In this document: positions 12,783 to 36,844 of the stretch, one piece after another
Layout: every line of letters starts with the position of its first letter
How positions within the stretch are numbered: the first letter of the stretch is position 1
DNA from: an uncultured Cohaesibacter sp.
GTDB taxonomy: Bacteria > Pseudomonadota > Alphaproteobacteria > Rhizobiales > Cohaesibacteraceae
Assembly (NCBI RefSeq): GCF_963677725.1
Contig: NZ_OY782507.1
Location: 2,728,001-2,792,000 of the forward strand
Length of the DNA stretch: 64,000 nt
Direction: 5' to 3'
Translations under genes and position numbers: made by a program
Notes under the pieces: generated by a model
What the model was told of the DNA's origin: nothing
Database searches by the model: none
What the model saw: only the letters and a program-made list of their open reading frames with translations

Positions 12783-12788
12783 AGGGGC

Positions 12789-14851: not shown

Positions 14852-14867
14852 AGCAAGGCCCGTGCCA
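14852..14867 (-). promoter_or_regulatory. Sigma54 promoter of dctPQM
   Basis: On the minus strand the sequence reads TGGCACGGGCCTTGCT, an exact match to TGGCACR-N4-TTGCW. It points at dctP, whose start is about 180 bp away. The neighbouring response regulator DctD is a sigma54 activator, so the pairing is coherent. Confidence 0.9.
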
Positions 14868-15086
14868 AGGGTGCCGGACCTCGCCTTTAGGATAAGAGGG
14901 GATGTTATTTCAGAATTTGAACCTATCTGTTCATTTGCAGAAATATTGTGTGTTTTCAATCATCAGGCAGCAATTCTGCGGATTGGGATGAGGCAAGGTG
15001 ACGCGCAAACAGTGGGTTTGAGCGCCTTTTGGAGGGCTCAACCGGCGTAATGATGGCAATCCTTTTGCAACGTGGTAGGAAAAGTT

Positions 15087-15134
15087 GTGCGGATTTCCAG
15101 ACAAGGGGTATGGTACTTGTCTGGACGGTCGCAC
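15087..15134. promoter_or_regulatory. Symmetric 48-bp dyad in the dctP/dctD divergent region
   Basis: GTGCG-N5-CCAGACAAG-N10-CTTGTCTGG-N5-CGCAC is perfectly symmetric: the inner 9-bp arms (15097-15105, 15116-15124) and outer 5-bp arms (15087-15091, 15130-15134) share one centre at 15110/15111. It lies about 220 bp behind the dctP sigma54 promoter and about 245 bp before dctD. It could be the DctD enhancer or the site of another dimeric regulator. Confidence 0.6.
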
Positions 15135-15377
15135 AGATTCTTTGGCATATGCGGATCAAGGGACCGGAAGGCGGGGAGGGGCAAACAAGTTTTCATGCTC
15201 TGGGCGACATGCATCAAAGCGTCAGAGACATGACTTGTCCTAAAGATCCAGCGAGGATCATTGGGAGCCTGTATAAAGAGTATGAAATGATCCGGAGTGG
15301 CGACATCTGTTGCCGCGATCGGGTCGGCAGGCACAGAAAGGACGCAGCAAGCCAGCGGCTGCGGCACAGTGTGACAG

Positions 15378-16718: not shown

Positions 16719-16750
16719 CGGAATAAATGCATCGGATCGCTTGCGCGGGC

Positions 16751-18478: not shown

Positions 18479-18720
18479 CGCGTCTTCCATATCCAGGATT
18501 AGGGGACTTTTGTTCTGTCCCGGTTGGCGGCCAGCTTGCCAAGCCTCTTCTTGCGCTGCTTTGGCGTGGATCATTCAGCAGCAGAAAATTCAAGTGCCAG
18601 TTCTGCCCTTTTAACATGCTCTTTTGACTTTGGGTCGTTTGCAAGGGCTTTGACATCATTAATCCTTCTCTAAGGGCAATGCGATAGAAGGGAAAGGGTG
18701 TGTTTTGATGAAGTTGAGCA

Positions 18721-20295: not shown

Positions 20296-21069
20296 CTAGA
20301 CGACAAACAGCTTTGCCCCATGCTGGTCGAGCTGCATCTTGATGTCAGAGGGAGGATTGGCATCGGTGAACAGGGCCGAGATGGAGCGAATATGACCAAG
20401 CTCCACCGTTGCGGTGGTGTTGAATTTGGTGGAATCGGCTGCAATGAAAATGTTACGGGCGGTTTTCATCATGTTCTGGACCATGATGACCTCATTGAAT
20501 TCATAATCAAGCAGCGTGCCGTCCGCATCGATGGACCCACAACTGGCGACGAGATAATCAACCCGGAAATGATTGATGAAGTCCAAAGCCGTCGAGCCAA
20601 TGATGCCGCCATTTGTGCTGCGCAATTTGCCGCCGGGCACCATCACGTTGAAGTCCTGCTTCTGATAGAGCACATTGGCGACCCGCATGCTGTTGGTGAT
20701 GACCTGAAGGCCGGAATGCTGCAGCAGGTGGCGGGCGATGATTTCGGTGGTGGTACCGATGGCCAGAAAGACCGAGCTATTGTCCGGTATCTGGGCGACC
20801 AAAGCCTTGGCGATGGCTTCCTTTTCTTCTGTCTCGGAGACCTGTCTGACGGCATAGTCGAGATTGACCACCGAGGAATTTCGCGCAGCCCCGCCGTGAT
20901 GGCGAATCAGCAGCTTCTGATCACTGAGTTTCTTGATGTCGCGGCGGATGGTCTGGGCAGACACATCCAGCAGCTCGGTCAGTTCTTCAACGCTCACATA
21001 GCCCTTGTCGTTGACTTCCTTGAGCAGGCTGTCGTGGCGAGGGTTGCCTACAATGACGGCATTTGGCAT
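20296..21069 (-). CDS. yihW: DeoR-family regulator of sulfoquinovose genes (YihW/CsqR-like)
   Basis: The 257-residue repressor-type protein has an N-terminal helix-turn-helix (GNPRHDSLLKEVNDKGYVSV and SAQTIRRDIKKLSDQKLLIRH, about 8-62). A DeoR sensor domain follows (IGTTTEI, VMVPGGKLRSTNGGIIG, VASCGSIDADG). The opening GNPRHD, the RHHGGA segment and the effector domain resemble E. coli YihW (CsqR), which controls sulfoquinovose genes. It lies 77 bp after the kinase gene on the same strand and is probably cotranscribed with it. The effector in E. coli is a sulfoquinovose-derived sugar; here that is inferred. Candidate operators are the TTCGAAAT octamers at 22255-22368. Confidence 0.85.
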   Translation of the reverse strand: MPNAVIVGNPRHDSLLKEVNDKGYVSVEELTELLDVSAQTIRRDIKKLSDQKLLIRHHGGAARNSSVVNLDYAVRQVSETEEKEAIAKALVAQIPDNSSVFLAIGTTTEIIARHLLQHSGLQVITNSMRVANVLYQKQDFNVMVPGGKLRSTNGGIIGSTALDFINHFRVDYLVASCGSIDADGTLLDYEFNEVIMVQNMMKTARNIFIAADSTKFNTTATVELGHIRSISALFTDANPPSDIKMQLDQHGAKLFVV

Positions 21070-21146
21070 GGGTCTTTGGCCTTCTCTTTCATCCAGATCC
21101 GTGTTGCCTGACCCGGCTGGAATTGAAACCGGGGCGGGCAGGGCGA

Positions 21147-22040
21147 TCAGCCGTTGGCGGCAAGAAAGGCCTCAATGGTGGCAAGATCGGGGACGCCATC
21201 GCGCCCGCCCAGTCGCGTGCATTTGAGGGCAGCAACTGCGCTGGCAAAGGCGACAATGTCCTTTATTGCCATGCCTTTGGCGAGCGCAAAGGCAAAGGCG
21301 CCATGAAAGACATCGCCCGCACCGGTGGTGTCTTTCACATCGACCTTAAAACCGGGTTGATGGTGGAGCGTGTCTCCCTCCAGCCAATAGCAGCCTTGCG
21401 ATCCAACGGTGACATAGACCTTACCATTTGTTTTCGTTTGGGCAACGCGCAATCCGTCTATCGGGTCATCAAGTTGTGAGAATTTCGCCAAACCCGGTTC
21501 GGAAAATGCCACATGGTCGGCCAATGCTACCAGATCAGTAATGTCTTGGGGGGTGATGTCTGCGTCAAGAACACTTTGTTTTTGCAATTGTTTGGCTTGC
21601 TCCAGGGCGTGTTTCGCTCCTGCTGGCCAGCGCACATCACAAAGGATGGATTCATACTGCGCGAAATTGATCTCTTTGAGCCACTCCGCATCACGGTCGA
21701 GCGTTGCATCCTGATAATTGATAATCATTCTCTCGCCTTCGTCATCGACCAAAATGGCAGAAAAAGACGATTTAGCCTCTTTTATAGCGCGAATATGGCG
21801 GGTGCCGACCCCATACTGGCTTAATTCGCGGATCATGGAGGCTGCGACATCATCATTCCCAACCCGGCCAATATAATCGACCGCCATGCCCAGCTTGGCG
21901 ATGGCAACCGCTGCGGTGGCTGCAGGCCCGCCGCCGACTTCGAAATAGTCACGGGCGACATATTTGCCGCCGGTTTTAGGCAAGTGATCGACCCGGAAAA
22001 TCCGATCAAGGACGGTGATTCCAACGCATGCGACGGTCAT
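21147..22040 (-). CDS. yihV: 6-deoxy-6-sulfofructose kinase (YihV-like, PfkB family)
   Basis: The 297-residue ribokinase-fold enzyme should phosphorylate sulfofructose at C1 using ATP. Family motifs are GGGPAATAAVAIAKLG near 37-52 and the C-terminal DTTGAGDVFHGAFAFAL, which holds the catalytic Asp. Beyond general PfkB features, it closely follows E. coli YihV: ACVGITVLDRI, TGGKYVARDYFEVGGGP, ADITPQDITDLVALADH and AALKCTRLGGRDGVPD. This supports sulfofructose rather than ribose or fructose as substrate. It is divergent from the YihU-like reductase and followed by the YihW-like regulator. The start has only a weak ribosome site (AGAG). Confidence 0.9.
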   Translation of the reverse strand: MTVACVGITVLDRIFRVDHLPKTGGKYVARDYFEVGGGPAATAAVAIAKLGMAVDYIGRVGNDDVAASMIRELSQYGVGTRHIRAIKEAKSSFSAILVDDEGERMIINYQDATLDRDAEWLKEINFAQYESILCDVRWPAGAKHALEQAKQLQKQSVLDADITPQDITDLVALADHVAFSEPGLAKFSQLDDPIDGLRVAQTKTNGKVYVTVGSQGCYWLEGDTLHHQPGFKVDVKDTTGAGDVFHGAFAFALAKGMAIKDIVAFASAVAALKCTRLGGRDGVPDLATIEAFLAANG

Positions 22041-22222
22041 GAGAGGCTCTTTGATGGCTGGTGTTGGCGATTTTCGCTCATTCTTTCTGCCATATGATCA
22101 GCCCAGTGACAGGGGATCAATCACAGAATGGATGGTGCGATGATGGGTGTGTTTGCGATCAAAGTCCATGATCGGAGCCAACGCCCTGTGGGCCGCCGGG
22201 ACCGGTTTTTGGTGACCGCTTC

Positions 22223-22368
22223 TAGTGATAAATACCTATAATTGTTGCCTTTCATTCGAAATTATCACCAAAAACACTCATAAAACAACCAAATTGTGTT
22301 GTATTTGTTCGAAATATCGTGCAGATGTTGGATAACGATCAAAAATGCTCAATATGAGGTTTCGAAAT
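22223..22368. promoter_or_regulatory. Divergent control region with three evenly spaced TTCGAAAT octamers
   Basis: Within the 326-bp divergent spacer, TTCGAAAT occurs at 22255-22262, 22308-22315 and 22361-22368. Each copy is exactly 53 bp from the next, about five helical turns. The third copy overlaps the reductase start codon. Equal spacing suggests cooperative or looping repression, most simply by the YihW-like DeoR protein. A TAGTGATAAATACCTATAAT stretch (22223-22242) resembles one upstream of the isomerase gene at about 34655-34674. Confidence 0.55.
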
Positions 22369-23260
22369 GGCAACAGTCGGATTCATCGGTCTTGGTCAAA
22401 TGGGCGCTGCGATGGCAGCCAATCTGATCAAGGGGGGACATGACCTCAATCTATATGACATCAACTCCGATGCCGTCGCGGCGCTGGCTGCAAAGGGTGG
22501 CAAGGCCTGTGATACTGTCGCAGCGGTTGCTGAAGGCGCCGACTTTGTCATCACCATGTTGCCAAACGGTGCGCTGGTGCGCTCTGTCTTGTTGGGTGAG
22601 GGAGGGGTTGTCGCTGCGCTGAAGAAAGACGCGCTGGTGATCGACATGTCAACCATTCACCCGCTTGAAACCGATAGCCTGATTGCCGATCTTGCGGCCA
22701 AAGGCATCGAGATGATGGAAGCGCCGGTCGGGCGGACGTCGGATCATGCCATTGCAGGCACCTTGTTGATCCTTGCTGGTGGCACCAAGACCCAGATTGA
22801 GCGGGCGCAGCCCTTGTTTGACCTGATGGGGTCGGAAACCGTCGATGCGGGTGGGCCGGGCAAAGGGATCCGCGTCAAGATCATCAACAATTACATGAGC
22901 ATTGCCCTTAATGCCCTGTCGGCGGAAGCCATTGCGCTGGCCGAGAAGATCGGTCTTGATTTCGACACCGCGATGGCGGTGATGAGCGGCACGCCTGCGG
23001 GCAAGGGGCATTTCACCACCAGTTGGCCAAACAAGGTGCTCAAGGGCGATTTGTCGCCTGCCTTCATGATCGATCTGGCACACAAGGATCTTGGCATTGC
23101 GCTTGATCTGGCCAATCAGGTCGGGGTGCCGATGCCGATGGGGGCAGCTTCCCGTGAACTTTACAATCTGAGCCGGATTGCTGGTCGCGGGCGTCAGGAC
23201 TGGACCGCCTTGCTTGAGCAATTGCGCGATCTGTCGGATATGCCGACCAAAGCGAAGTAA
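22367..23260 (+). CDS. yihU: 3-sulfolactaldehyde reductase (YihU-like)
   Basis: This 297-residue member of the beta-hydroxyacid dehydrogenase family should reduce sulfolactaldehyde to 2,3-dihydroxypropanesulfonate with NADH. It has the N-terminal Rossmann motif [15 protein letters not shown], the substrate motif DMSTIHP, and the catalytic lysine in [16 protein letters not shown] (about 171). Stretches such as [30 protein letters not shown] and [14 protein letters not shown] match E. coli YihU very closely, separating it from 3-hydroxyisobutyrate or tartronate semialdehyde enzymes. GAGG seven bases upstream fixes the start. It opens a rightward series with the mutarotase and exporter genes. 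Confidence 0.93.
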
Positions 23261-23281
23261 GTCTCAGTTGGGAGGATTATC

Positions 23282-24337
23282 ATGAAAGTGCAAGTCGAAA
23301 CCTATGGCGAGGTGGATGGCCAGGCGGTCGATCTCATCACCTTGAGCAATGACAATGGTATGGTGGTGCGTGTCACCAATTATGGCTGCATTGTCACCTC
23401 GATTGAAGTGCCGGACCGGGACGGGGCTGTGGCCGATGTGGTGTTGGGCTATGAGTCTTTGGACAAATATCTTGGCGGACATCCTTTCTTCGGTGCAGTC
23501 GCCGGGCGGTTCGCCAACCGGATCGAGGATGGTCGTTTCTCGATTGATTGTCGCCGTTATCAGCTGGAAACCAACGAGCCGCCGACCGTGCAGCATTTGC
23601 ATGGGGGCTCGAAGGGGTTCGACAAATATGTCTGGGGCTATGATCTGGAAGAGCGAGACGATGCGGTGATGATCCATCTGCATCGGGTGTCGCCGGACGG
23701 GGAAAGTGGCTATCCGGGCAGCTTGCTGGTGACCCATACGATTGGTCTGACGGAGTCCAATGCGCTGCATTATGACTTCCGGGCGGTGAGTGACAAGCCA
23801 ACCATCGTCAATCTGGTAAATCACAGCTACTACAATCTAGCAGGTCACGATAGTGGCTCGGTGGCGGAACATGAATTGACCCTGTTTGCGGATTTCTACA
23901 CTCCGGTGGCCGAGACAATGATCCCGACCGGGGAAGTGCGCGCAGTGGCCGACAGCGCAATGGACTTTCGTGCACCGGTGCGGATCGGCGACCGGATGGA
24001 AGGGGTCGAGGACGGCGGCTTTGACTTCAACTTCATACTGCATGGCAAACAGAAGCATGGCGAGTATCGGCTGGCGGCCGACCTTTATGATCCGTCCAGT
24101 GGGCGCTTCATGAAGGTGATGACCACCCAGCCAGCGATCCAGTTCTATAACGGCTTTAAATTATCGAACAAACCGTGGTTCGGACGCAATGGTTGCAAAT
24201 ATGAAGCCTTTGGCGGGCTTTGCCTTGAAACCCAAGGCTATCCCGATGCACCCAACAAGCCCCATTTCCCAAGCGCCGTGTTGAGGCCGGGTGATGTCTA
24301 TCAGCATCGCACCATTCATCAGTTTGGCACGCGCTAG
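23282..24337 (+). CDS. Aldose 1-epimerase (candidate sulfoquinovose mutarotase)
   Basis: The 351-residue galactose-mutarotase-fold protein interconverts anomers of a sugar. It shows AGRFANRIEDGRF (about 77-89), the catalytic histidine segments TVQHLHGG and NLVNHSYYNLAGH, and a C-terminal GGLCLETQGYPDAPN containing the catalytic glutamate. Sequence overall is closer to GalM than to E. coli YihR, so specificity is inferred from position: it lies 21 bp after the sulfolactaldehyde reductase and has GGAGGA before the start. Mutarotation is useful after the retaining glycosidase releases alpha-sulfoquinovose, because the isomerase may need a different anomer. Confidence 0.88.
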   Translation: MKVQVETYGEVDGQAVDLITLSNDNGMVVRVTNYGCIVTSIEVPDRDGAVADVVLGYESLDKYLGGHPFFGAVAGRFANRIEDGRFSIDCRRYQLETNEPPTVQHLHGGSKGFDKYVWGYDLEERDDAVMIHLHRVSPDGESGYPGSLLVTHTIGLTESNALHYDFRAVSDKPTIVNLVNHSYYNLAGHDSGSVAEHELTLFADFYTPVAETMIPTGEVRAVADSAMDFRAPVRIGDRMEGVEDGGFDFNFILHGKQKHGEYRLAADLYDPSSGRFMKVMTTQPAIQFYNGFKLSNKPWFGRNGCKYEAFGGLCLETQGYPDAPNKPHFPSAVLRPGDVYQHRTIHQFGTR

Positions 24338-24400
24338 ACTTAGACCGTTCAATGGGCCGGGGGCGACGATCCCGGCCCTGTTACCGCAGGCAATGTCATC

Positions 24401-25141
24401 ATGATGGAAATTCTCATCGTCTCGGCGATCATCACGCTGGGCAGCTTCACTCAAGGCCTGACGGGCTTTGGACTGGCTTTGGTCAGTGTGCCGCTTCTCT
24501 CCATGGCGGTGGATGTGAAAGCTGCTGTGCCAATTGCCGGTATTTTCGGATGGCTGGTGACCTTTCCGCTGGTCTGGAAAATGCGGCACCATGTGCAGTG
24601 GCGCGTCGGGTTGATCCTGTTTGCTGGGTCCTTGCCGGGGTCGTTTCTGGGGGCGGATCTGCTCAAAAGGTTGCCCGCCGAAGCGATCCTGATCACGATG
24701 GGCTGCGTTCTGATCTTGTCGAGCCTTTATTCGCTGTTTGCCAAGGCGCCCCTCTTTTCAAAGGCTTCCGCCCCGCTGACGGTCGGGACGGGGTTCTTTT
24801 CCGGTGCCTTGGGGGCGAGTGTTGGCGAGCCGGGGCCGCCGGTCATTGCCTATACATCGATGCAGCCATGGACTGCGGATCAGACCAAATCGACGCTGGT
24901 CTTTTTCTTCATGCTGCAAATGGTTGGTGCGATTGCCGGTTTCTGGAGCAAGGGACTGTTGACCGCTTACGTGGTCGAACGAGTGCTTTATGCCATGCCC
25001 GCTTTTCTGGTGGGGATGAGTGTGGGCATGTTTGCCTATCACCTGCTGCATAAATTCAAGATCAACTATCACGGCATCATTCACACTCTGCTGCTGATCA
25101 TCGGTGTTATGTTGGTGATTAAGAATGTCCATATTTGGTAG
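24401..25141 (+). CDS. TauE/SafE-family membrane protein, candidate organosulfonate exporter
   Basis: The 246-residue protein has seven or eight membrane segments and the two-fold TauE/SafE pattern: GSFTQGLTGFGLALVSVPLLS in the first half and VGTGFFSGALGASVGEPGPPVIAY in the second. The family exports sulfite, sulfoacetate or related anions. It is third in the rightward series after the reductase and mutarotase. The most economical role is export of dihydroxypropanesulfonate or another C3-sulfonate product, in place of E. coli YihP, but this is inference. Two start codons (24401, 24404) are possible, with a weak ribosome site. Confidence 0.85.
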   Translation: MMEILIVSAIITLGSFTQGLTGFGLALVSVPLLSMAVDVKAAVPIAGIFGWLVTFPLVWKMRHHVQWRVGLILFAGSLPGSFLGADLLKRLPAEAILITMGCVLILSSLYSLFAKAPLFSKASAPLTVGTGFFSGALGASVGEPGPPVIAYTSMQPWTADQTKSTLVFFFMLQMVGAIAGFWSKGLLTAYVVERVLYAMPAFLVGMSVGMFAYHLLHKFKINYHGIIHTLLLIIGVMLVIKNVHIW

Positions 25142-25413
25142 ATTTTCTCGAAAATATGTGCAGAAATGTTGCTAAACGCTCATGGTATTCTCTTTTGCCT
25201 TTCGAAAAAGATCATCGTTCTCTATACTGTAATCAAGAAAACAACAATCAGCTTTGGGCAGCATCGGGCTGGCCCGATATTCTATCTGGCAGTTTTGCCA
25301 CTGGTGATGCGCTGAGACGTGCATCAGCTCGCTATCTCAAAATCACTCTGACCGTCGTGTTTGTGCACGCTCTGTGCGCTGCCTGATCCAGAGCCCAAAA
25401 TCGAGGATAAACA

Positions 25414-26277
25414 ATGGCTTATATATCCGGTAAGACTCTCCTAGATCGTGCATGGAAAGAGGGATACGCCATCGGCGCTTTCAGCGTGCATAATGCGGAA
25501 ACGACGCGCGCTATCCTCAAGGCAGCAGAGGAAGAAAAAGCCCCTATCCTTGTGATGATCGGTCAGAAAGTGATCAACACGATGGGCCTTGAAGAAATGA
25601 AGGCGATGGTTGATGCCTTCATGGCCAATCACACGGTGCCGGTGGCCATTCATATCGATCACAGCCGTCAGTTTGAACAGACAATGGCCGCGGCCCGCGC
25701 TGGCTTCCAATCGCTGATGTTTGACGGCTCCGGGTATGACTTTGATGAAAATGTCCGTATCACCAAGGCGGTGGCCGATGTGGCCCATGCTTTGGGCATT
25801 GGCTGTGAAGGTGAAATTGGCAAAATCGGTGGCGTGGAAGACGACATTGATGTCGATGAAGCTGACGCGATGATCACCACGGTCGATGAAGCGCAGGAAT
25901 TTTCCAGTCGCACCGGCCTTGATTATCTGGCCATTTCCATGGGCACGGCGCATGGCATCTATACTTGTGAACCCAAGCTGGCCTTTGACCGCATTGGTGA
26001 AATCAAGGAAATCGTCCAGAAGCCGCTTGTCATGCATGGGGGCTCGGGGGTGCCGGATGAGCAAGTTCAGCGGGCCATTTCCCTTGGTATTGCCAAAATC
26101 AATGTCGATACCGAATTGCGCCAGTCCTTCACGCTGGGGGTTCAGGACTATTGGAAAGAAAATCCGAAAGATTTCGTTCTGGCCGATTCTCTGGGTGCCG
26201 GAGAGCTGACCATGAAGGAAAAAGTCAAAGAAAAGATCCGTTTGTTCGGTTCCAGCGGCAAGGCCTCCGATTTCTGA
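25414..26277 (+). CDS. Class II ketose-bisphosphate aldolase, candidate sulfofructose-1-phosphate aldolase
   Basis: The 287-residue zinc aldolase shows the metal and catalytic segments of the class II family: VAIHIDHSRQFEQT (His and catalytic Asp), EGEIGKIGG, SMGTAHGIY and VMHGGSGVPDEQV, and the phosphate-binding KINVDTELR. The predicted reaction is cleavage of sulfofructose 1-phosphate to DHAP and 3-sulfolactaldehyde. E. coli uses YihT, a class I aldolase, so this is a non-homologous replacement. Context supports the role, since no other aldolase lies in the island; an ordinary fructose- or tagatose-bisphosphate aldolase cannot be excluded. GAGGAT precedes the start, and the 272-bp upstream gap (with TCGAAAA elements near 25148 and 25203) suggests its own promoter. 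Confidence 0.85.
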   Translation: MAYISGKTLLDRAWKEGYAIGAFSVHNAETTRAILKAAEEEKAPILVMIGQKVINTMGLEEMKAMVDAFMANHTVPVAIHIDHSRQFEQTMAAARAGFQSLMFDGSGYDFDENVRITKAVADVAHALGIGCEGEIGKIGGVEDDIDVDEADAMITTVDEAQEFSSRTGLDYLAISMGTAHGIYTCEPKLAFDRIGEIKEIVQKPLVMHGGSGVPDEQVQRAISLGIAKINVDTELRQSFTLGVQDYWKENPKDFVLADSLGAGELTMKEKVKEKIRLFGSSGKASDF

Positions 26278-26309
26278 TCGTGTCCTCCCTAGAATTGGTT
26301 TTGCCGTCA

Positions 26310-26336
26310 GCCCCGGTCCTTGTGACCGGGGTTTTT
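26310..26336 (+). terminator. Terminator after the aldolase
   Basis: The 8-bp stem CCCCGGTC (26311-26318) and GACCGGGG (26324-26331) with loop CTTGT is followed by TTTTT. It ends the rightward sulfoquinovose genes about 33 bp after the aldolase stop. Confidence 0.85.
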
Positions 26337-26497
26337 GGTTTCTGCACTCGATCGCAGCCATTGGCTATGCGTTTTTCAGGCAGGAGAGTGTCACAATTTT
26401 GGGCTTTCGATTCCATTCTGTTTGGGACTATTCTAATCCTTCCTCCTCATAGGGCTGCTGTTTGTCGCCCATCTTCCGTTTCAGGAACCATAATCTG

Positions 26498-27889
26498 ATG
26501 GATTTTGCGCGCTTCTCTGATCGCCTGTTTGGCTGGATCATTGTCTTTGTCATTCTGCTTCAGGCCATTTTTGAATGGACTGGGGTGAAGTGGGTTTTTC
26601 TTCCCCTGCTTGCCAGTCTTCTTATCATTGTCATCATCATGGCGTTCAGAGCCAGCAAGAGTGGTTTTGTTTTTCTCTGTGTCTGTCTGGTGCTGACTGT
26701 CGCGTTGGTCTTCAAAAATGATGATTGGCAGGCCATTCTGTCGGCATCGGTGTTCAAGACCGGCTTTCTTGTTTCTTTCTTTTCTGCCTTGACGATCCTG
26801 CGCAATGCGGCCTCTACATCGCCCGCGATGGGCAAATCCGGCGCCTTTCTGGCTGCCCAGCCTCCGGGGCGTCGCTATATTTCGTTGTCTTTCGGCACGC
26901 AGATCTTTGCCTTGTTGCTTAATTTCGGGGCTATCCAGTTGCTTGGTGCTCTGGCGCTTACCAGTGCCAAGAGCGAACCGGATGAAAGGGTCCGCGCCAT
27001 ACGATCCCGCCGGATGCTGCTTGCCATTCAGCGTGGCTTTGTTTCTTCTCTGACCTGGTCGCCGATGGCTTTCTCGACCGCTATGGCGGTGGCGACCATT
27101 CCAGGCATCAGCTGGATGGGCATTGCCATGCCGGGGCTGGTCAGTTCAAGCCTGTTGCTCGGCACCGGCTGGGCGATGGATACGATCTTCAAGCCAAGAT
27201 CGTCAGGCAGTGCAAGGCCGCGGCCTGCTTCCCAGTTGCACTGGACGGTTTTGTTGCCGCTGCTGGCTTTGCTGGTGATCATTCTGGTGCCGGTCTTGAG
27301 CATTGAGCTGCTGTTTGGAATCCGCATCGTCGGCATCGTGCTGGTGGTGGTTCCGATCCTGTCGATCATCTGGCTGCTGATCCAGAAGAAGGACGCATTC
27401 GTTGTTGGCAGAGGTCTCATCAGCTATGTGCATAATGAGGTACCTGCCTTCCGCTCGGATCTGCTGTTGCTGATGAGTGCAGGCTATATTGGTGTGATTG
27501 GATCGGCGCTGCTGGTGCCCATCATGGCTGAAGCGGGGATTGATCTCACTGTCATTCCGGGCTGGCTGTTGCTCATTTCTCTGGTCTGGATCATGCCGGT
27601 CTTGGGGCAGATCGGATCGAACCCTATTCTCAGCCTGTCGCTGGTCGCTCCCATGCTGCCCGATGCTGCGGCTTATGGTCTTGATCCTCGCGCGCTTGGC
27701 GTGGCCTTGTTGTGTGGATGGTCGCTGACAGGTCTCACATCGCCCTTTACCGCTACCAACATGATGATTGGCCGGTTTGGTGGCATCCCCACCGTGGATG
27801 TCGGACGCGTCTGGAACCGCTCTTTCTTTTTTGTTGCGGTGACGTTGCTCTGTCTGTGGTCGCTGATCTTTGGCTATTGGATTGTATGA
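26498..27889 (+). CDS. Polytopic membrane protein, unknown transporter
   Basis: The 463-residue protein has about eleven to twelve membrane segments and a short cytoplasmic stretch near 140-165 (PDERVRAIRSRRMLLAIQRG). The repeated, loop-containing layout, with SSLTWSPMAFSTAMAV and GLTSPFTATNMMIGRFGG as two related re-entrant-like segments, recalls the ion transporter superfamily of anion and dicarboxylate carriers, but I do not recognise a defined family. It is encoded between the aldolase terminator and the sulfoquinovosidase terminator, so it is its own transcription unit inside the island. It could export C3-sulfonate or import another anion. The methionine at 26498 fits better than the upstream TTG. 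Confidence 0.6.
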   Translation: MDFARFSDRLFGWIIVFVILLQAIFEWTGVKWVFLPLLASLLIIVIIMAFRASKSGFVFLCVCLVLTVALVFKNDDWQAILSASVFKTGFLVSFFSALTILRNAASTSPAMGKSGAFLAAQPPGRRYISLSFGTQIFALLLNFGAIQLLGALALTSAKSEPDERVRAIRSRRMLLAIQRGFVSSLTWSPMAFSTAMAVATIPGISWMGIAMPGLVSSSLLLGTGWAMDTIFKPRSSGSARPRPASQLHWTVLLPLLALLVIILVPVLSIELLFGIRIVGIVLVVVPILSIIWLLIQKKDAFVVGRGLISYVHNEVPAFRSDLLLLMSAGYIGVIGSALLVPIMAEAGIDLTVIPGWLLLISLVWIMPVLGQIGSNPILSLSLVAPMLPDAAAYGLDPRALGVALLCGWSLTGLTSPFTATNMMIGRFGGIPTVDVGRVWNRSFFFVAVTLLCLWSLIFGYWIV

Positions 27890-27916
27890 AACCAGTCCAA
27901 TGTCGCTTCCCATAGC

Positions 27917-27955
27917 AAAAAGCCCTGCGGGACTGATGATCCCGCAGGGCTTTTT
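27917..27955. terminator. Bidirectional terminator between the permease and sulfoquinovosidase genes
   Basis: A perfect 16-bp stem, AAAAAGCCCTGCGGGA (27917-27932) and TCCCGCAGGGCTTTTT (27940-27955), has A/T tracts on both sides. It serves both convergent genes. Confidence 0.92.
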
Positions 27956-27979
27956 ATTGGCGGTCAAGTCTTGATGACA

Positions 27980-30001
27980 TCATGCCACGTCGTTGGCGAT
28001 GTCCGGGATCTTGTTGAACAGAACCGCGTCGGCGCTGCTGGCGCGGTAGAAGACTGCAGGCTGCCCAAGCGGAGCGTCAACTTCGACCCAGCCGCCCTCA
28101 TAATGATCATTGGTCCATATATGAATCCATTGATCAGGGGGCAGATAGAGTTTGCGTGTGGTGGCCCCTTTCTCATAAACCGGGGCAACGAGGCAATCGC
28201 GGCCAAACAGATATTGATACATGACCTCATAAGCCTCGGCATCGTCCTCATAATGGACGAAAAGCGGTCGCTGGACGGGCATGCCCGTAAGGGTGTTTTC
28301 CTTCAGAGCCGCTTTGATATAGGGTTTCAAGTGGGTGAAGATCCGGGTCATGACAGCCAGATGGGCAAGTGTCTCACTGTCGCTGTCAAATTGGTGGTTG
28401 TCTGCCGGGCGGTTGCCCTCGTGGCTGCGCATGATCGGGGTGAAGGCAGCCATTTCTGTCCAGCGCATGAACAATTCGCGGTCGCGTTTCATGCCGTGCA
28501 ACGTGGTATAGCCGCCAATGTCGGAATGGTGAATGCCGTTGCCGAGCAGGCCTGAGGATAGTGCCCCATTGACGACGGACGGGATGCCGTCATCGATGTT
28601 CCAGTTGACGCATTGATCACCACCCCAAAGGGCATGGCAATAACGCTGGATGCCGGTATAGCCCGCGCGCATGAAAAACAGGATATCGTCGGTCTTGCCT
28701 GCTTCCTCGATGGCGTCATGGTTGATCTTGGCCCAACGGGTCGGCCAGTTGTTGTGTTCGATTTCGGCGGAGACCCCGTTTGACAGGGCGCAGTCGGTGG
28801 GCAGGTATTCGCCAAAGTCGGCCATCCAGCCTGACAGACCAAAGTCGATCATGTTGGTCTTGATGACGCCCTTGTACCACTCACAGGCATCTGGATTGGT
28901 GAAGTCGACAACACCGCAATAAAACTCACCAAAATCCACCACATATTTGCTGCCATCCTCACGGGTGGCGAGATAGCCCTTGGCTTGGGCCTCGCGATAG
29001 AGTGGGAAATCCTCCAGCACATACGGATTGATATAGCCAAGGAAGCGGATGCCATCCTTTTTGAGCGCGTGGATTTCGGTGTCAAGGCCGGGATAGAGGT
29101 AGGGGTTCCATTGCCAGTCCCATTGCAGGCGCTTGCCGAAGCTGGTCATCTTGATGCCCTGCCAATCCTGACACCAGACGCCGGATACCTTGACGCCAGC
29201 GGCGCGTGCGCGTTTGATCTTCTCAATGGTGATGTCAGTGCCGCCCTGAATGCCAAGAATGATGCCGTCAAGCACCCAGTCGGGCAGTTCTGGCTGAGTG
29301 CCGAAGACACCGGTTATGCTGCGAATGAGAGCGGGGAAACTGTCTGCGGCATCAAAGAGCAGATAGTCCGGGATGTTCCAGCTTTGCAATTCGTGGAAGT
29401 CTTCGGCCCGGAAGTCAAAATCCGCATAGGCGGTGGTTTCCAGATGGACGAAATATTTCTCTGACGAGACAAAGGTCGGCTGTGGATAGTTGGTGTTGTA
29501 ATAGTCGCCGCCCGCGCGGTCCTTCACGTCTGCCTGCCATGTGACATAGGTGTTCTTGTTGCGACCAACGCCGGGCTCGGATGTCCAGAGCGGGAAAGTA
29601 TGGCCGCGCAGATTGAGATAGGTGAGTTGCTCGCCGCAGCCATAGATTTTTTCGTCCGCACCCGCTGGCAGGCGCAGCCAAAAGCGGTTGAAATTGCCTT
29701 TGGCATCCTTGAAGGAGATTTTCAGGCGGCCTTCAGCGGTTTCCTCGGCCAACAGCGTGATGACTGGCTCATGGGCAAGGATGAACTGGATCCGGATCGC
29801 ACCATCCTGCTCTTCGATCACGAAATGGCGCATGGCGATGCGCTCTATCACATAATCGGAAATATCGAAATTGCCGCGATACATGTCAAAGGTCGGATCG
29901 CCTTCGCCAAGATAAAGAGCGGGGGTCTCCAGACTGTGGCGCAGCAAAGCCTTGCCTTTGTGGGAGAGAAGAAAGCCGGTTTCTGATCGATCGAGTTTCA
30001 T
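27980..30001 (-). CDS. yihQ: Sulfoquinovosidase (GH31, YihQ-like)
   Basis: The 673-residue GH31 glycosidase is close in length to E. coli YihQ (678) and follows it throughout: DMYRGNF, IYGCGEQLTYLNLRG, PLWTSEPGVGRNK, TYVTWQADVKDRAGGDYY. It carries the nucleophile Asp in GWMADFGEYLPTD (near residue 395) and the acid/base Asp in WGGDQCVNW. The sulfonate-binding residues known in E. coli YihQ (Arg301, Trp304 and Tyr508) have counterparts here in MTSFGKRLQW and HHSDIGGYTTL. It releases sulfoquinovose from sulfoquinovosyl glycerol and related glycosides. No signal peptide is visible, so glycosides must enter the cytoplasm first. It is last in a leftward series after the TRAP genes. Confidence 0.95.
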   Translation of the reverse strand: MKLDRSETGFLLSHKGKALLRHSLETPALYLGEGDPTFDMYRGNFDISDYVIERIAMRHFVIEEQDGAIRIQFILAHEPVITLLAEETAEGRLKISFKDAKGNFNRFWLRLPAGADEKIYGCGEQLTYLNLRGHTFPLWTSEPGVGRNKNTYVTWQADVKDRAGGDYYNTNYPQPTFVSSEKYFVHLETTAYADFDFRAEDFHELQSWNIPDYLLFDAADSFPALIRSITGVFGTQPELPDWVLDGIILGIQGGTDITIEKIKRARAAGVKVSGVWCQDWQGIKMTSFGKRLQWDWQWNPYLYPGLDTEIHALKKDGIRFLGYINPYVLEDFPLYREAQAKGYLATREDGSKYVVDFGEFYCGVVDFTNPDACEWYKGVIKTNMIDFGLSGWMADFGEYLPTDCALSNGVSAEIEHNNWPTRWAKINHDAIEEAGKTDDILFFMRAGYTGIQRYCHALWGGDQCVNWNIDDGIPSVVNGALSSGLLGNGIHHSDIGGYTTLHGMKRDRELFMRWTEMAAFTPIMRSHEGNRPADNHQFDSDSETLAHLAVMTRIFTHLKPYIKAALKENTLTGMPVQRPLFVHYEDDAEAYEVMYQYLFGRDCLVAPVYEKGATTRKLYLPPDQWIHIWTNDHYEGGWVEVDAPLGQPAVFYRASSADAVLFNKIPDIANDVA

Positions 30002-30078
30002 GGGACTGGATCCACTGCAGGAGCATTGGGGACGCCGCGGTTGGACGGGATGGGCCGTTCCTTGCCGGGGGCGTTGTG

Positions 30079-30103
30079 AAAAGGGGGCGGTTGAACCGCC
30101 CCC
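30079..30103 (-). terminator. Hairpin between the TRAP receptor and sulfoquinovosidase genes
   Basis: GGGGGCGG and CCGCCCCC (about 30083-30102) form a stable stem. On the minus strand it is followed by TTTTC from GAAAA. It probably gives partial termination or protects the receptor mRNA 3' end, reducing expression of the downstream glycosidase. Confidence 0.5.
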
Positions 30104-30126
30104 TGATCTCTTTGCTTGCGCGAAGC

Positions 30127-31179
30127 TTATTTGGATGCGGCTTCGAAGTCTGCGTCGAGCTTGGCTTCGCAGGCCTTGATTTCTTTCTCGAAGCGGTCAA
30201 GCCATGCCTTGCCTTCGTCGCCCGCGCTGGCCAGATAGAAATCTTTCACCGGAGCAGTTGCTTCCTGGAAGGCTTTCTTTTCGGCAGCATTTGGGGTGTA
30301 GATGGTGCCGCCAGCCTTGCGGAAGGTTTCGTAGGCGTCGAATTCTTTCCATTTCGGATAGACGCGTAGGAACTGGTTCTGAGCGGCAACCCCATCAATG
30401 ATGACGCGTTTCAGCTCATCGGGGAAGCTTTCGAAACGGTCATTGTTCATCACCCAGACGCCGCCCATATAGGCATGACCGTCAAGCACCAGATAATTGA
30501 GGCTCTCCTCGAATTTCATGGTGGTGATATCGACGATGCCGTTTTTGGTGCCGTCAACAACGCCGGTGGACAGGGCAGTGTAAACTTCCGGCCATGCGAT
30601 CGGGGTTGGGGCGCCACCAAGGGCCTTGACCAATTCCTGCTGGATCGGTGCAGGCACGGTGCGGATTTTCAGGCCAGCCACGTCGGCAGGGGATTTGATC
30701 TGCTTGTTGGTGGTGGCAAAGTTGCGCCAGCCGCCAGAGTTGGAGACCATCATCAGACGGACATTTTGCGTCGCGTCGAGCACATTTTTGCGAATGTCGG
30801 CGAGGAAGTCTTCATTGTCATAGACGCATTCAGCAACACGGTCATCGCGCAGCAGGTAAGGCAGGTCAAAGCCACCGGCAGGAGCCCAGAAGTTGGCCAA
30901 TTCGGCGATTGTGGTCTGGAAATAGTCAAAAATGCCGGACTGAACGCCGGAGAGACATTCGCGGGCATTGCCGCACAGCTGGCCGCCGGGGAAGATTTCC
31001 ACTTCGATGGCACCATTGGAGTGGTTTTCGACAAAGTTCTTGAAGACCAGCAAGGACTGATGGTTGTAGCTGTCCGTGTTGGACACATGGGGCACGGTGA
31101 GCTTGTATTCAGCAGCCTGTGCGGTCCCGGCCATGAAGCCGGCGGCGAGAAGCGCAAGACCCAGTTTCTTAAGTTTCAT
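30127..31179 (-). CDS. TRAP substrate-binding protein (DctP family), sulfoquinovose island
   Basis: The 350-residue periplasmic receptor has a signal peptide MKLKKLGLALLAAGFMAGTA-QA and the DctP layout: VEIFPGGQLCGNARECLSGVQ, GLKIRTVPAPIQQELVKALG (ligand arginine) and ALSTGVVDGTKNGIVDITTMKF. It differs from the DctP at 13695 and has four or so cysteines (CGNAREC, AECVYD, KACEA), so a disulfide is possible. The start at 31179 has GGAGGTAAAG upstream. It lies with DctM, DctQ, the isomerase and the sulfoquinovosidase on one strand. I infer that it binds sulfoquinovose or a sulfoquinovosyl glycoside; the sulfonate could take the place of the usual carboxylate on the conserved arginine. Confidence 0.88.
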   Translation of the reverse strand: MKLKKLGLALLAAGFMAGTAQAAEYKLTVPHVSNTDSYNHQSLLVFKNFVENHSNGAIEVEIFPGGQLCGNARECLSGVQSGIFDYFQTTIAELANFWAPAGGFDLPYLLRDDRVAECVYDNEDFLADIRKNVLDATQNVRLMMVSNSGGWRNFATTNKQIKSPADVAGLKIRTVPAPIQQELVKALGGAPTPIAWPEVYTALSTGVVDGTKNGIVDITTMKFEESLNYLVLDGHAYMGGVWVMNNDRFESFPDELKRVIIDGVAAQNQFLRVYPKWKEFDAYETFRKAGGTIYTPNAAEKKAFQEATAPVKDFYLASAGDEGKAWLDRFEKEIKACEAKLDADFEAASK

Positions 31180-31253
31180 CTTTACCTCCAATGGTAAAAT
31201 CACGCTGGCGTTGAGCGTTGGTTGACGCCAGCCTCCTCCAGGATTTCCGCGCC

Positions 31254-32543
31254 CTACATCATGCCCAGCAGCTTGGGCAGGCCAATAACGAGGGACGGGA
31301 AGAACGAAATCAGAAAGATCACCAGGAATTCTGCGAGCAAGAACGGAATGATCGCTCTGGAGATCTTCTGAAGCGGTACACCGGACACGCCGGAAGCGAC
31401 GAACAGGACAAGGCCCATGGGCGGGGTTGCCAGTCCGATGGAAAGGTTGACCACCATGACGACGCCGAAATGGACCGGATCGACGCCAACGGCTGTCATG
31501 ATCGGTGCAAGAATCGGAGCGAAGATCAGAATGGCCGGTCCCGCATCGATGAACATGCCAACGATGAACAGGAAAATATTCATGATGAAGAACAGGATCA
31601 GTGGATCCTTGGTGATCGAATAAAAGAAGCTGGTAATGACCTTGGCAATGCCTGACAGGGAGATGGCGGAGGCAAAGCCACTGGCTGCGGCGACGATGAT
31701 CAGGATTGCGGCCGCATTGATGGCAATGCGCACGAACATCGGGAAGACGTCCTTGAGCTTGAGCAGGCGCATGATGAAGATCGACAGCACGAAGGCATAG
31801 AACACGGCGATGGCGGCCGCTTCGGTCGGCGTGAAAATGCCACCATAGATGCCGCCCAGAATGATGACCGGGGTCAGCAGCGGCAGGATGGCCGCCTTGA
31901 AGGCTGCGGAGCGTTCCGGGCGGGAGGCCCGTTCGAATTGCTCAACGGCAGGGTATTTCTTGATCTGCCAGCGATTGACCAGCATCAGCGCAAAGCAGAG
32001 GATCAGGCCCGGCACGATGCCGGACATGAACATCGCCGCAACCGACGTGTTCATCACGAAAGCGTAGATCAGCATGATGCCGCTTGGCGGGATGATGGTG
32101 CCCAGAACCGTCGCTGCCGCCGTAATGGCCGCCGCATAGGTGCGGTCATATTTATAGCGCTCCATTTCCGGGATCATCATGTTGCCAATGGCCGAGGTGG
32201 CGGCAACCGAAGACCCGGTCAGGGCGCCGAACAGAGTGGCCGCGATGATCACCACATGGCCAAGACCGCCGCGAAAATGCTGCACCATGGTCTGGGAGAA
32301 AGTGATGATGCGGGTGGTGATGCCACCATTGACCATGAATTCGCCCGCCAGCATGAAGAAAGGCAGGGCGAGCAGCAGGAACACGTCCAGACCAGCATAA
32401 AGACGCTGGTAGAGCATGTTCATGAACAACACTTTGTCGGCCTGGAACAGGGCGATGGCCGGGGACAGACCGAGCGCGAACAGAACCGGTAGACCGATCA
32501 ACAGGAAGGCCAGAAAATAGACCGCAAAGATAGGGGAGACCAT
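31254..32543 (-). CDS. TRAP transporter large permease (DctM family), sulfoquinovose island
   Basis: The 429-residue permease has about twelve membrane segments and the family hallmarks FFMLAGEFMVNGGITTRIIT, GALTGSSVAATSAIGNMMI, GTIIPPSGIMLIYA and SIGLATPPMGLVLFVASG. It lies between the small permease (30 bp upstream) and the receptor gene (75 bp downstream). The gene order isomerase-dctQ-dctM-dctP-sulfoquinovosidase ties this transporter to sulfoquinovose use. The residues that contact substrate cannot be read from the permease sequence. Confidence 0.9.
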   Translation of the reverse strand: MVSPIFAVYFLAFLLIGLPVLFALGLSPAIALFQADKVLFMNMLYQRLYAGLDVFLLLALPFFMLAGEFMVNGGITTRIITFSQTMVQHFRGGLGHVVIIAATLFGALTGSSVAATSAIGNMMIPEMERYKYDRTYAAAITAAATVLGTIIPPSGIMLIYAFVMNTSVAAMFMSGIVPGLILCFALMLVNRWQIKKYPAVEQFERASRPERSAAFKAAILPLLTPVIILGGIYGGIFTPTEAAAIAVFYAFVLSIFIMRLLKLKDVFPMFVRIAINAAAILIIVAAASGFASAISLSGIAKVITSFFYSITKDPLILFFIMNIFLFIVGMFIDAGPAILIFAPILAPIMTAVGVDPVHFGVVMVVNLSIGLATPPMGLVLFVASGVSGVPLQKISRAIIPFLLAEFLVIFLISFFPSLVIGLPKLLGMM

Positions 32544-32572
32544 GATGTTCGTCCTTTAGCTTTCTGGATCAA

Positions 32573-33097
32573 TCAAGCCTGTGGCTGTTGGTCGGCGGGT
32601 TTGAAATGAAGGAACAGGCGCAGCTCTGTCACGATTTTCTGCAAAGCAGACAAGAGGGTTATGGCCATCAGCAAAGGCGGAGCGATATAGATGACATTCA
32701 TGGTGATGGGCAGGCTGTCGGCGCGGCTCGAACCACGGGCGAAGAAGTCATAGCCAAACTTGATCCAGATAAGAAAGGTGAGGATCGCAAGGCAATGGAT
32801 GAGGATCATCAGCAGATGCTTGACCCGCGTGTTGTCCAAAGCATCAAGCAGGAAGGTCATGGCAATATTCTTGTCCTGCAGATAGATGATCGGCAGGCAG
32901 AGATAGACCATATAGATCATCAGGAAGCGGGAGGCTTCGTCGGTCCAGCTAAGGGGGGTGTTGAGAACATAGCGGAACAGGATCTGCAGCAGCACAATGA
33001 CGGTCATGATGACCAGCATCGACCCGCCAATCCAGCTGCCCAGTTTGCCGATGGGGCTGTTGATCCTGTTAAGACCCTTTTCGAGCGCTGCAAGCAT
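32573..33097 (-). CDS. TRAP transporter small permease (DctQ family), sulfoquinovose island
   Basis: The 174-residue protein has four membrane segments and the DctQ-type signature TPLSWTDEASRFLMIYMVYLCL. It follows the isomerase gene by 83 bp and precedes dctM by 30 bp, with AAGGGAT before the start. With the adjacent subunits it should complete an inner-membrane TRAP system driven by a sodium gradient. Confidence 0.9.
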   Translation of the reverse strand: MLAALEKGLNRINSPIGKLGSWIGGSMLVIMTVIVLLQILFRYVLNTPLSWTDEASRFLMIYMVYLCLPIIYLQDKNIAMTFLLDALDNTRVKHLLMILIHCLAILTFLIWIKFGYDFFARGSSRADSLPITMNVIYIAPPLLMAITLLSALQKIVTELRLFLHFKPADQQPQA

Positions 33098-33179
33098 TGT
33101 GCTATCCCTTTTTCAAGCATGCCGTGTGACTTTGGCGGATGGGCGGTAAGCCGCCCGTCCGAAGGCTTTGCCCTGTTGG

Positions 33180-34526
33180 TCAGGTCAATTCGACGACCTC
33201 GATGCCAAGGCGCTTGGCAATGGCACGCATGATCGGGCGATGGTCGCCATAGGTGAGTGCCGTGTGGTGCTCCAGACCCTCATTGATCATCCGGTCAAGG
33301 AAAGTCTTGACCGGTACATCCGGTCTGGCGGTGCCGGCGGTTCCGGAAAAGGCAAGGGGCGCCTTGATCATCTCGGCTCCGGCGAGGATCAGCCGCAGCT
33401 TGCCGTGGCCTTGGGAGAAACGCGCCATGGTGATGCGGCCCGGTTTGAGGGCGAATTCGGAGAGAAGCGGCATTTTGCGGTTGGAATGGATGGCGCCCTG
33501 AATGGTCTGATCTTTGTCAGCCATGTCAATGGGAGCCTGTCCGCAATGCCAGAAGACGATGGTGTCATCCTCGGTGTTGACGTCGACCAGATCGGTGTTG
33601 AAGACCGAGTTGCCAGAGGCTTGTTGCAGGGTGAGGGAGGTGACGACCCCCATCATGTCCGCTTCGCAACCTGCCGGGGTGTGGTCTTCATTGAGCAGAG
33701 CCAGCGCTCCGCAGGCCGCGCAGCCATATTCGATGAAAAAGTCCGGCCAACAACGCACTGCAACGCCTTTATAGCCTTTCTCGTCGGCTTCCGTGCGCAG
33801 CTTGGAGTAGATCTTGAGGGTCTTGCGGGTGGCCTCCTGGTCCAGCTCGCCCAGATTGGGGAACTGGGCCTTGCGGCGTTCATAGGGTGCGTCCGCGACT
33901 TCGTCAGGCAAATCTTTGACTTCATTGATGAAATCGCTGATGCCGATGCGGTCGACATCAATGCCAAATCGGCAATGAAGCTCCTGCTCATTGAAGTTGC
34001 AGGCATCAAATCCATCAGGATGCTCCCCGACCAGCTTCAGCTTGGCACCCTGCAATTCGTGGACGATGGCGCCTGCCTTGGCCAACAGGGCAATGTCCTC
34101 GATGGCTTTGGGGTTGTCAGCGTCTGCGTGGATATAATCAATGGTCAGGTCGTTGCGGCTCAAGGCATGGCTCGCGAGATTAACCCCGCAGAAGGAATTG
34201 AGCCGTAAGCGTCCGCCGGTCCGTGCTTCGGGAAAGGACCACATCACCAGTGGTGCACCGATCTGCTTGCCCAGTTCAACGGTCATGGTTGCGTCGGTAA
34301 AGGTCACCTGCAAGAGGAGCAGCATGTCGAGCTTTTGCGCTTTGAGCGCGGGCAGGGCATCGAGGACTGCGTCGGCATCAAACAGAAGCTCCGGTTTGCC
34401 GATGAGATCGGCATCGAGGCTTTCAAGGGATGCCCAGGCTTTGGCCAGAATCTCTTGCGCAAAGGGCACGTCGAAGGTTGGTCGGCCCAGTGCGACGACA
34501 CCGATGCATGGTCTTTCTGCGGACAT
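33180..34526 (-). CDS. L-fucose/L-arabinose isomerase-fold protein, candidate sulfoquinovose isomerase
   Basis: The 448-residue protein belongs to the fucose/arabinose isomerase superfamily. The N-terminal domains carry CIGVVALGRPTFDV and LLLLQVTFTDATM. The C-terminal part carries VRCWPDFFIEYGCAACGALALL, PAGCEADMMGVVTSL and IVFWHCGQAPIDM, typical of the family's metal-dependent active site. An aldose-ketose isomerase is needed to turn sulfoquinovose into sulfofructose, and no YihS-like enzyme is in the window, so this is the best candidate. It heads the leftward TRAP-sulfoquinovosidase series. The start at 34526 has GGAGGAA upstream; the frame is open to 34625. Family membership is clear, substrate is inferred. 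Confidence 0.8.
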   Translation of the reverse strand: MSAERPCIGVVALGRPTFDVPFAQEILAKAWASLESLDADLIGKPELLFDADAVLDALPALKAQKLDMLLLLQVTFTDATMTVELGKQIGAPLVMWSFPEARTGGRLRLNSFCGVNLASHALSRNDLTIDYIHADADNPKAIEDIALLAKAGAIVHELQGAKLKLVGEHPDGFDACNFNEQELHCRFGIDVDRIGISDFINEVKDLPDEVADAPYERRKAQFPNLGELDQEATRKTLKIYSKLRTEADEKGYKGVAVRCWPDFFIEYGCAACGALALLNEDHTPAGCEADMMGVVTSLTLQQASGNSVFNTDLVDVNTEDDTIVFWHCGQAPIDMADKDQTIQGAIHSNRKMPLLSEFALKPGRITMARFSQGHGKLRLILAGAEMIKAPLAFSGTAGTARPDVPVKTFLDRMINEGLEHHTALTYGDHRPIMRAIAKRLGIEVVELT

Positions 34527-35159
34527 AGGGTTCCTCCACAATCCCGGCAGGCCACTATGAGAGGCCAGATGGTCAGGCACCTCCCAATGCGCATAGACCT
34601 GCCAAGCGGTTTCTGTCAGAGGCAACAGTACGGCGATAAACGATCATAGACTATCAGTAAAAATACTTATAAATGGTCATTTCTCACAAAAAATGTCATA
34701 ATAATTCCATGAAACAAACATGAAGTGACAATTACGCTCAAAAGCTGTTGTTTTTTGGAATTGCTGATTGACGCGCAAATCGGGTGGAATTGAAGGCCGG
34801 GTGAAGCGCAGTTTTGACGGTTAGATGGATATGGCGAGCGTTGTGAAAAATCACAATTATACCGCTATTTCATGGAGATAAGAGAAGCCTGCTGCCGTGA
34901 GTGAACAGAAAAGCCTTATTTGCTGTTTCGTATGGCATCACATATCAGGCCTGAGATGATGGACAGAAAGCGATAAATTCGGAGCACCAAGCGTGGAGAA
35001 GTCCCCTCAGAGATCGATCTAGCCGTGCTCTGGCTGATTGCCGCCGTTTCGTTTTGATCGTTTTGTGACAAATAGCGTTGGTGGACGGAAGGGTGGCTTG
35101 TCCCGCATTTTGTTTGCGTGCAGGTCTCGTTACTGGGGACATGTTGTTTTCCTGGTCGA
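34527..35159 (-). other. Long upstream region of the isomerase-TRAP-sulfoquinovosidase genes
   Basis: This 633-bp AT-rich stretch has no convincing gene. Its left part holds CAGTAAAAATACTTATAAAT (34655-34674), which resembles the sequence before the kinase at 22223-22242. Both lie upstream of leftward genes, so this may be a shared promoter or operator element. The right part lies after the GH13 gene and shows no clear terminator. A short 65-codon frame at 34945-35142 looks random. Confidence 0.35.
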
Positions 35160-36635: not shown

Positions 36636-36844
36636 GATGGTGCCCTCACCCTCAAGCGAGCCGCTCTGGCCTTGATAGGGGGCTGTTGCGGCCATGCGTC
36701 ATGGGTCTGATCGATAAGGAAGTAGCGTTTGCGGCTCGGACGCCGTTAAGAATGGACCATATGCTGCATTGGTCTGATGGATCAAGCCCTCTGGCGAGGC
36801 CTGTCCCAACGGGATTGATCATGGGGAGGCGGGGTGAGCGCGCG

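Follow-up and report, generated by a model that had tools for sequence, protein, structure and literature searches.

How sulfoquinovose (SQ) might be taken up and degraded where only part of the Escherichia coli machinery is recognisable is the question raised by positions 20296–34526 of the window, by which we mean the whole analysed stretch of 64,000 nucleotides from an uncultured marine Cohaesibacter sp. whose genome is assembled as a single 4.63-Mb contig. The region encodes 12 genes, every frame open, and had been described in the initial annotation as a sulfoglycolytic island in which enzymes of the E. coli type are combined with a replaced aldolase, isomerase and transporters. The genes it named were recovered at that place, including the isomerase with its start codon (ATG) at 34526, and the description is supported by family assignments, residues and trees. 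SQ, a sulfur sugar made by plants and algae, ranks among the most abundant organosulfur compounds according to PMC12890257. As judged from sequence, the region is most likely an SQ utilisation island of the hybrid sulfoglycolytic Embden–Meyerhof–Parnas type (sulfo-EMP; EMP1/EMP2), with its own uptake system and with dihydroxypropanesulfonate (DHPS) as the predicted product, and it is probably fed by a sulfosugar importer of the tripartite ATP-independent periplasmic (TRAP) type.

The window shares four proteins with the yih cluster of E. coli K-12, with 54–67% identity in nearly full-length blastp alignments, bearing out the likeness claimed in the initial annotation: a DeoR-family regulator of the CsqR/YihW type (20296–21069, minus strand; PF08220 and PF00455; 54%), a PfkB-family kinase of the YihV type (21147–22040, minus strand; PF00294; 60%), a YihU-type reductase (22367–23260, plus strand; 67%) and a YihQ-type sulfoquinovosidase from GH31 (27980–30001, minus strand; 54%). 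The best PDB match of the kinase was 7ag6, a sulfofructose kinase (E 1e-109), and the N109 and R138 positions are kept. The reductase scored 480 bits against NCBIfam NF012005 (sulfolactaldehyde reductase; cut-off 348) and keeps the R123, K171, N174 and S178 positions. The GH31 enzyme reached 986 bits against the NCBIfam YihQ model (cut-off 553) and keeps all seven checked positions, i.e. the catalytic Asp pair and the Q-Q-R-W-Y residues of the sulfonate site, which we take to be the diagnostic sites in E. coli numbering. The E. coli proteins YihS, YihT, YihO, YihP and YihR found no match at E 1e-3, either among the 12 island proteins (blastp) or in the window (tblastn), in searches that detected CsqR, YihV, YihU and YihQ as positive control; the reported absence of the first four was thereby upheld, and the island is not a canonical yih cluster, which would have all four.

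The replaced enzymes belong to families known from other sulfoglycolytic systems. The predicted sulfofructose-1-phosphate aldolase (25414–26277, plus strand) is a class II enzyme (PF01116) with 8q57 and 8q58 as nearest PDB relatives, and in a quick tree it fell into an SqiA-type clade shared with the aldolases of hybrid clusters and separate from KbaY/GatY (Shimodaira–Hasegawa-like approximate likelihood ratio test, SH-aLRT, 97). The putative SQ/sulfofructose isomerase (33180–34526, minus strand) carries a fucose-isomerase C-terminal domain (Pfam). Its AlphaFold2 (AF2) model (pLDDT, the predicted local distance difference test score, 87.6) has the fold of L-arabinose/L-fucose isomerases and a FucI-like pattern of metal ligands, which points to an SqvD-type enzyme with metal ligands; a shared fold does not establish the reaction. 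To these can be added an aldose-1-epimerase of the GalM family (23282–24337, plus strand; PF01263), which had been left unnamed in the initial annotation. This protein had no blastp match to E. coli YihR but occupies the matching place in relatives, and is probably an SQ mutarotase that fills the place of YihR. The GH31 enzyme, YihV-type kinase, SqiA-type aldolase, SqvD-type isomerase and YihU-type reductase together appear to make up the enzyme set of a hybrid sulfo-EMP pathway.

From these assignments we infer the following route. The DctP/Q/M TRAP transporter would import SQ and probably also sulfoquinovosyl glycerol: inspection of YihQ by eye showed no signal peptide, which would place the hydrolysis of SQ glycosides inside the cell and require their import as well as that of free SQ. 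Cytoplasmic YihQ would release SQ, the GalM-type protein would speed the exchange of its anomers, and the SqvD-type metal isomerase would convert it to sulfofructose, to be phosphorylated at C1 by the YihV-type kinase. SqiA would then split sulfofructose-1-phosphate into dihydroxyacetone phosphate and sulfolactaldehyde, the latter being reduced to DHPS by YihU and exported by a TauE/SafE permease (24401–25141, plus strand; PF01925), with CsqR controlling the divergent units.

The arrangement is conserved beyond the window. The isomerase was found at 79–93% identity in nine of 17 other genomes of the genus, giving 10 of 18 with the host, and it is surrounded there by the other island genes (except CsqR in genome G003); CsqR adjoins the kinase in nine of the ten islands. 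Two Pseudovibrio loci carry a compact block of 11 genes (CsqR, YihV, YihU, GalM, TauE, SqiA, SqvD, DctQ, DctM, DctP and YihQ), in which the TRAP genes again lie between SqvD and YihQ. In P. denitrificans JCM 12308 (L030) the YihU, GalM, SqvD and YihQ genes are each split in two, which may reflect draft errors, and the loci of P. exalbescens stop at a contig edge with half of the island visible. Pseudovibrio and further species of the genus thus share this block, as the gene-order search proposed earlier brought out, so the island is not a chance assembly. The TauE gene is present in all 12 of the 14 window-type islands for which that stretch was available. The hybrid cluster of Serratia microhaemolytica (L033), the SqvD and SqiA of which are 63% and 67% identical to those of the window, instead encodes YihO and YihP, with neither TRAP nor TauE found in its 21-kb stretch. 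As TauE accompanies the window-type islands and is missing where YihP is present, it is likely to be the DHPS exporter. Read most simply, the window combines the published hybrid enzyme set with exchanged transporters.

The TRAP transporter itself is complete, comprising DctP (30127–31179, minus strand, ATG at 31179; PF03480, with a signal peptide by eye), the large membrane subunit DctM (31254–32543, minus strand; PF06808, 360 bits) and the small membrane subunit DctQ (32573–33097, minus strand; PF04290, 86 bits). The genes for SqvD, DctQ, DctM, DctP and YihQ run in the same direction in this order, SqvD being first, with intergenic gaps of 82, 29, 74 and 125 bases, which places the transporter in a probable operon, flanked by the SQ isomerase and the sulfoquinovosidase. 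It could nevertheless be argued that the enzymes degrade SQ while the TRAP transporter imports another compound, for example a carboxylate, and that SQ enters through a transporter encoded elsewhere in the genome. TRAP binding proteins usually bind carboxylates. The host genome encodes 27 PF03480 binding proteins (chance alone would put about 0.12 of them within 10 kb of a given position), and the best solved relatives of the window DctP, sialic acid and isethionate binders among them, reach only 120–130 bits. The isethionate (PDB 8t9t) and sialic acid (4mmp) binding proteins score 121 and 124 bits; they belong to the same DctP family and the arginine of an LKIR/LKLR motif aligns. Against a separate SQ transporter, YihO, like YihS and YihT, went unmatched when all 4.63 Mb of the genome were searched, though with no positive control (YihP was searched for in the window only).

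In a phylogeny, the 22 DctP proteins encoded next to SqvD formed one clade against the 26 paralogues of the host genome (support 100/100). As these 22 had been picked by neighbourhood, 385 genomes of the class were searched with DctP alone (E 1e-45), giving 17 matches including the host. Five of the 16 others lie in SQ-monooxygenase clusters (G253, G370, G311, G429, G350) and four beside SqvD (G433, G216, G320, G122); that of G401 is adjoined only by a distant YihV-like kinase and a LacD-like aldolase, and those of G408, G463, G440, G111 and G230 have none of the pathway markers beside them. The DctP gene of G291 lies on a 3.2-kb contig; neighbours could not be assessed there or on the 5.8-kb contig of G043, and G648 (L087, SqvD 29%) was left out of the neighbourhood annotation. 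In an enlarged tree retaining six of the 26 host paralogues, the window DctP belonged to a clade of 29 (support 98/95), 27 of them encoded beside SqvD or SQ-monooxygenase genes: 14 from window-type islands, eight from a second type of cluster and five linked to the monooxygenase, joined by the proteins of G408 and G291. The DctPs of G463, G401, G440, G111 and G230 fell outside. Both G408 and G291 encode the monooxygenase elsewhere in the genome (83% and 77%), whereas it was not found at E 1e-60 in the five out-of-clade genomes or in the host, nor are those five among the seven genomes of the class sample with SqvD at E 1e-40. SqvD or the monooxygenase is thus carried by 11 of 11 other in-clade genomes in this sample and by none of five out-of-clade genomes (one-sided Fisher test 2e-4, post hoc and uncorrected for relatedness).

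The window DctP accordingly groups, in these trees, with a sulfosugar-linked clade separate from other DctPs. Import of a different compound is therefore unlikely: the transporter keeps its place between SqvD and YihQ in Pseudovibrio, and its clade follows three types of sulfosugar pathway. On balance, we favour the view that DctPQM represents a dedicated and undescribed alphaproteobacterial family of sulfosugar TRAP transporters, dependent on a binding protein and driven by ions, which would scavenge sulfosugar of plant and algal origin and feed the hybrid sulfo-EMP pathway with SqiA, a sulfo-EMP type with a LacD-like aldolase (one cluster of which would lead towards sulfopyruvate) and the SQ-monooxygenase pathway. 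If this holds, the family would offer a directly testable binding protein, and its genes could serve as markers by which to recognise sulfosugar uptake in genomes and metagenomes of alphaproteobacteria.

Several results weigh against the proposed pathway and its importer. With 27 TRAP binding proteins in the genome, neighbourhood in this one genome is weak evidence. SqvD occurs without this TRAP transporter, within the stretch examined, at three of 11 testable loci of the second type (G345, G741, G048) and at two distant loci (G260, with ABC-type genes, and G645). No sulfosugar pathway gene was found in the 17.5-kb stretch around the in-clade DctP gene of G408, only an aldehyde dehydrogenase (35%). 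The clade is also linked to clusters of the second type, which have a class I LacD-like aldolase and for which the exact sulfosugar is uncertain, and the AF2 model of DctP (seven-sequence alignment; pLDDT 46.8) was too poor for the pocket to be read. Among the enzymes, the isomerase scored 289 bits against NCBIfam NF048012 ("sulfoquinovose isomerase SftI"), below the cut-off of 700, although this cut-off defines the SftI equivalog and not the SqvD of the published hybrids, as represented by the Serratia protein. It also had no sequence relative in the PDB at E 0.01, which is why the fold model was made. In quick trees the kinase grouped with YihV (SH-aLRT 86) and the reductase with YihU (84), so that neither fell outside the clade expected of it, but both placements are moderately supported. 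The kinase tree moreover lacks four rows from the same genus, where YihV was lost to a filter for overlapping open reading frames and is found by tblastn. Finally, CsqR had no match in the 14-kb stretch beside the kinase in G003 (L088).

Clusters of the second type also suggest that the island might serve another 6-sulfosugar, such as sulfofucose, since these relatives have an aldolase of the LacD (tagatose-bisphosphate) type. The available part of PMC12421959 considers a PF00294/PF01791 kinase–aldolase pair for sulfofucose, yet reports that the pair was not induced. The window GH31 enzyme, however, keeps all seven YihQ positions, whereas four GH31 enzymes from the second cluster type (L043:7319-9439; L045, L079, L080) have lost at least three and up to all of the five sulfonate-site positions, and the kinase, reductase and aldolase of the window belong to the YihV, YihU and SqiA groups; a substrate other than SQ is therefore very improbable. 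It is most improbable that the island has decayed or fallen out of use, as all frames are open and the conserved genes are 68–99% identical and in the same order in nine other islands of the genus.

Hybrid SQ degradation with this enzyme set has been reported before, and the claim that the combination may be undescribed therefore did not stand for the enzymes. PMC9594981 covers sulfo-EMP2 as well as a hybrid from Yersiniaceae that contains SqvD and SqiA, and PMC10991401 reports hybrids of Hafnia and Serratia fonticola with the same two enzymes and mixed yih/sulfo-EMP2 csqR neighbourhoods in Alphaproteobacteria. In PMC13372026, a Vibrio whose sulfo-EMP cluster includes SqiA grew on SQ and produced DHPS, and PMC12890257 mentions hybrids from Proteobacteria and Actinobacteria. 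The replacement of YihS and YihT by SqvD and SqiA is thus already published, and transport is the distinctive part: the S. microhaemolytica cluster (L033), standing here for the Yersiniaceae/Hafnia/Serratia hybrids, has CsqR, YihV, YihU, SqiA, a GalM-type mutarotase, SqvD and YihQ in common with the window, but YihO and YihP in place of the TRAP and TauE transporters. The sulfo-EMP2 cluster of Bacillus (Alkalicoccus) urumqiensis shares the families of SqvD (PF02952) and SqiA (PF01116), according to the available part of PMC9594981. Its kinase SqiK belongs to PF00365 and that of the window to PF00294, so that the island is not a strict sulfo-EMP2 cluster; SqvB was not specifically searched for.

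As for uptake, E. coli YihO carries the annotation of a putative SQ transporter, ABC transporters are implicated in the available part of PMC12421959, and a TRAP transporter appears as putative sulfolactate importer in that of PMC10507020. No SQ TRAP transporter was found in the literature searched for sulfoquinovose and TRAP, as far as its text was available, and "trap" in the available parts of PMC12421959, PMC11659671, PMC12133307, PMC6278857 and PMC11968277 stands for laboratory devices (ion trap, trap column) or is used as a verb; a Roseobacter SQ paper and an SqiA-aldolase paper lay outside that search and might name one, so that proof of the transporter being new is lacking. The search likewise returned no paper combining sulfoquinovose with Cohaesibacter or Pseudovibrio. 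The part of the initial claim that concerned TRAP uptake is well supported by association.

The comparison also brought up other sulfosugar clusters. Those of the second type, from other alphaproteobacteria (L081, L082, L083, L043, L045, L047, L048, L079), combine an SqvD-like isomerase, a LacD/YihT-like class I aldolase, a YihV-like kinase and a TRAP transporter of the window's clade; the GH31 enzyme of L043 scores best as an alpha-xylosidase. L081 further encodes a dehydrogenase of the succinate-semialdehyde dehydrogenase type, a 2-hydroxyacid dehydrogenase and a sulfopyruvate decarboxylase alpha subunit (160 bits, cut-off 148), a gene set suggesting a route onward to sulfoacetaldehyde. The five SQ-monooxygenase clusters (L140, L141, L143, L145, L146) encode a Gfo/Idh/MocA (SqgA-like) protein along with the window-clade DctP; their enzymes cleave the C–S bond, unlike the pathway of the window. 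The monooxygenase of G429 had 7olf as best PDB match (710 bits), which we take to be an SQ monooxygenase, and its Gfo/Idh/MocA protein matched 8zn9 and 8qc3, presumably GH188 sulfoquinovosidases. In L084, from the 1.6-Mb genome G260, an SqvD-like isomerase, an SqgA-like protein, a YihV-like kinase and sulfopyruvate decarboxylase-like halves occur together, and what is by eye an ABC sugar transporter replaces TRAP. Plasmid pZZM402 of Zymomonas mobilis (L023) encodes SqiA (64% identity to the window), a GalM-type protein (50%) and SqvD (58%), together with a Gfo/Idh/MocA protein, a TonB receptor, MFS genes and an aldehyde dehydrogenase, with no sugar kinase among the genes listed for the stretch. 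A plasmid of Candidatus Chlorohelix allophototropha (L024) carries an SqvD-like isomerase (32%) beside a phosphofructokinase-type kinase, an aldehyde dehydrogenase and a nitrite/sulfite reductase.

For the regulation by CsqR, k-mers from three promoter regions were compared across 12 genomes, the window included, and AACGATCA-like words were in excess of shuffles, which ignore the relatedness of the genomes. Boxes matching CGMTCAWA occur twice in the divergent promoter region between kinase and reductase (22041–22366; boxes at 22156–22163 and 22336–22343) and three times in the promoter region of the SqvD–TRAP–YihQ operon (34527–35159; boxes at 34641, 34735 and 35053), that is, five in 959 intergenic bases against 0.17 expected, for a motif derived from these same regions. 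No such box lies in the window's aldolase promoter, and the 14 matches in the whole window are not unusual (11.3 expected). The boxes are suggestive of a CsqR operator.

One island gene has no apparent part in the pathway. The polytopic protein encoded at 26462–27889 (plus strand) matched no Pfam family at a threshold as lax as E 1, and the proposal that it stands in for a missing yih component was rejected: of the 18 genomes of the genus, 14 encode it, including four that lack a close isomerase, and in eight of the ten island genomes its gene is located away from the island. The gap between SqiA and YihQ behaves as a variable slot, in the window as in L036 and L091; in G004 and G001 it is occupied by genes for a LysR regulator and an SBF-like transporter, and in G001 also by an MFS gene (Pfam was run on the G004 copies and on the MFS gene). 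Beyond the island, the gene beside the island promoter at 35160–36695 encodes a member of the alpha-amylase family that, on a weak C-terminal match, may be a sucrose phosphorylase. At 11508–18574, another TRAP binding protein (13746–14588) and a gene that is DctM-like by eye lie near a sigma-54 response regulator and a Cache-domain histidine kinase.

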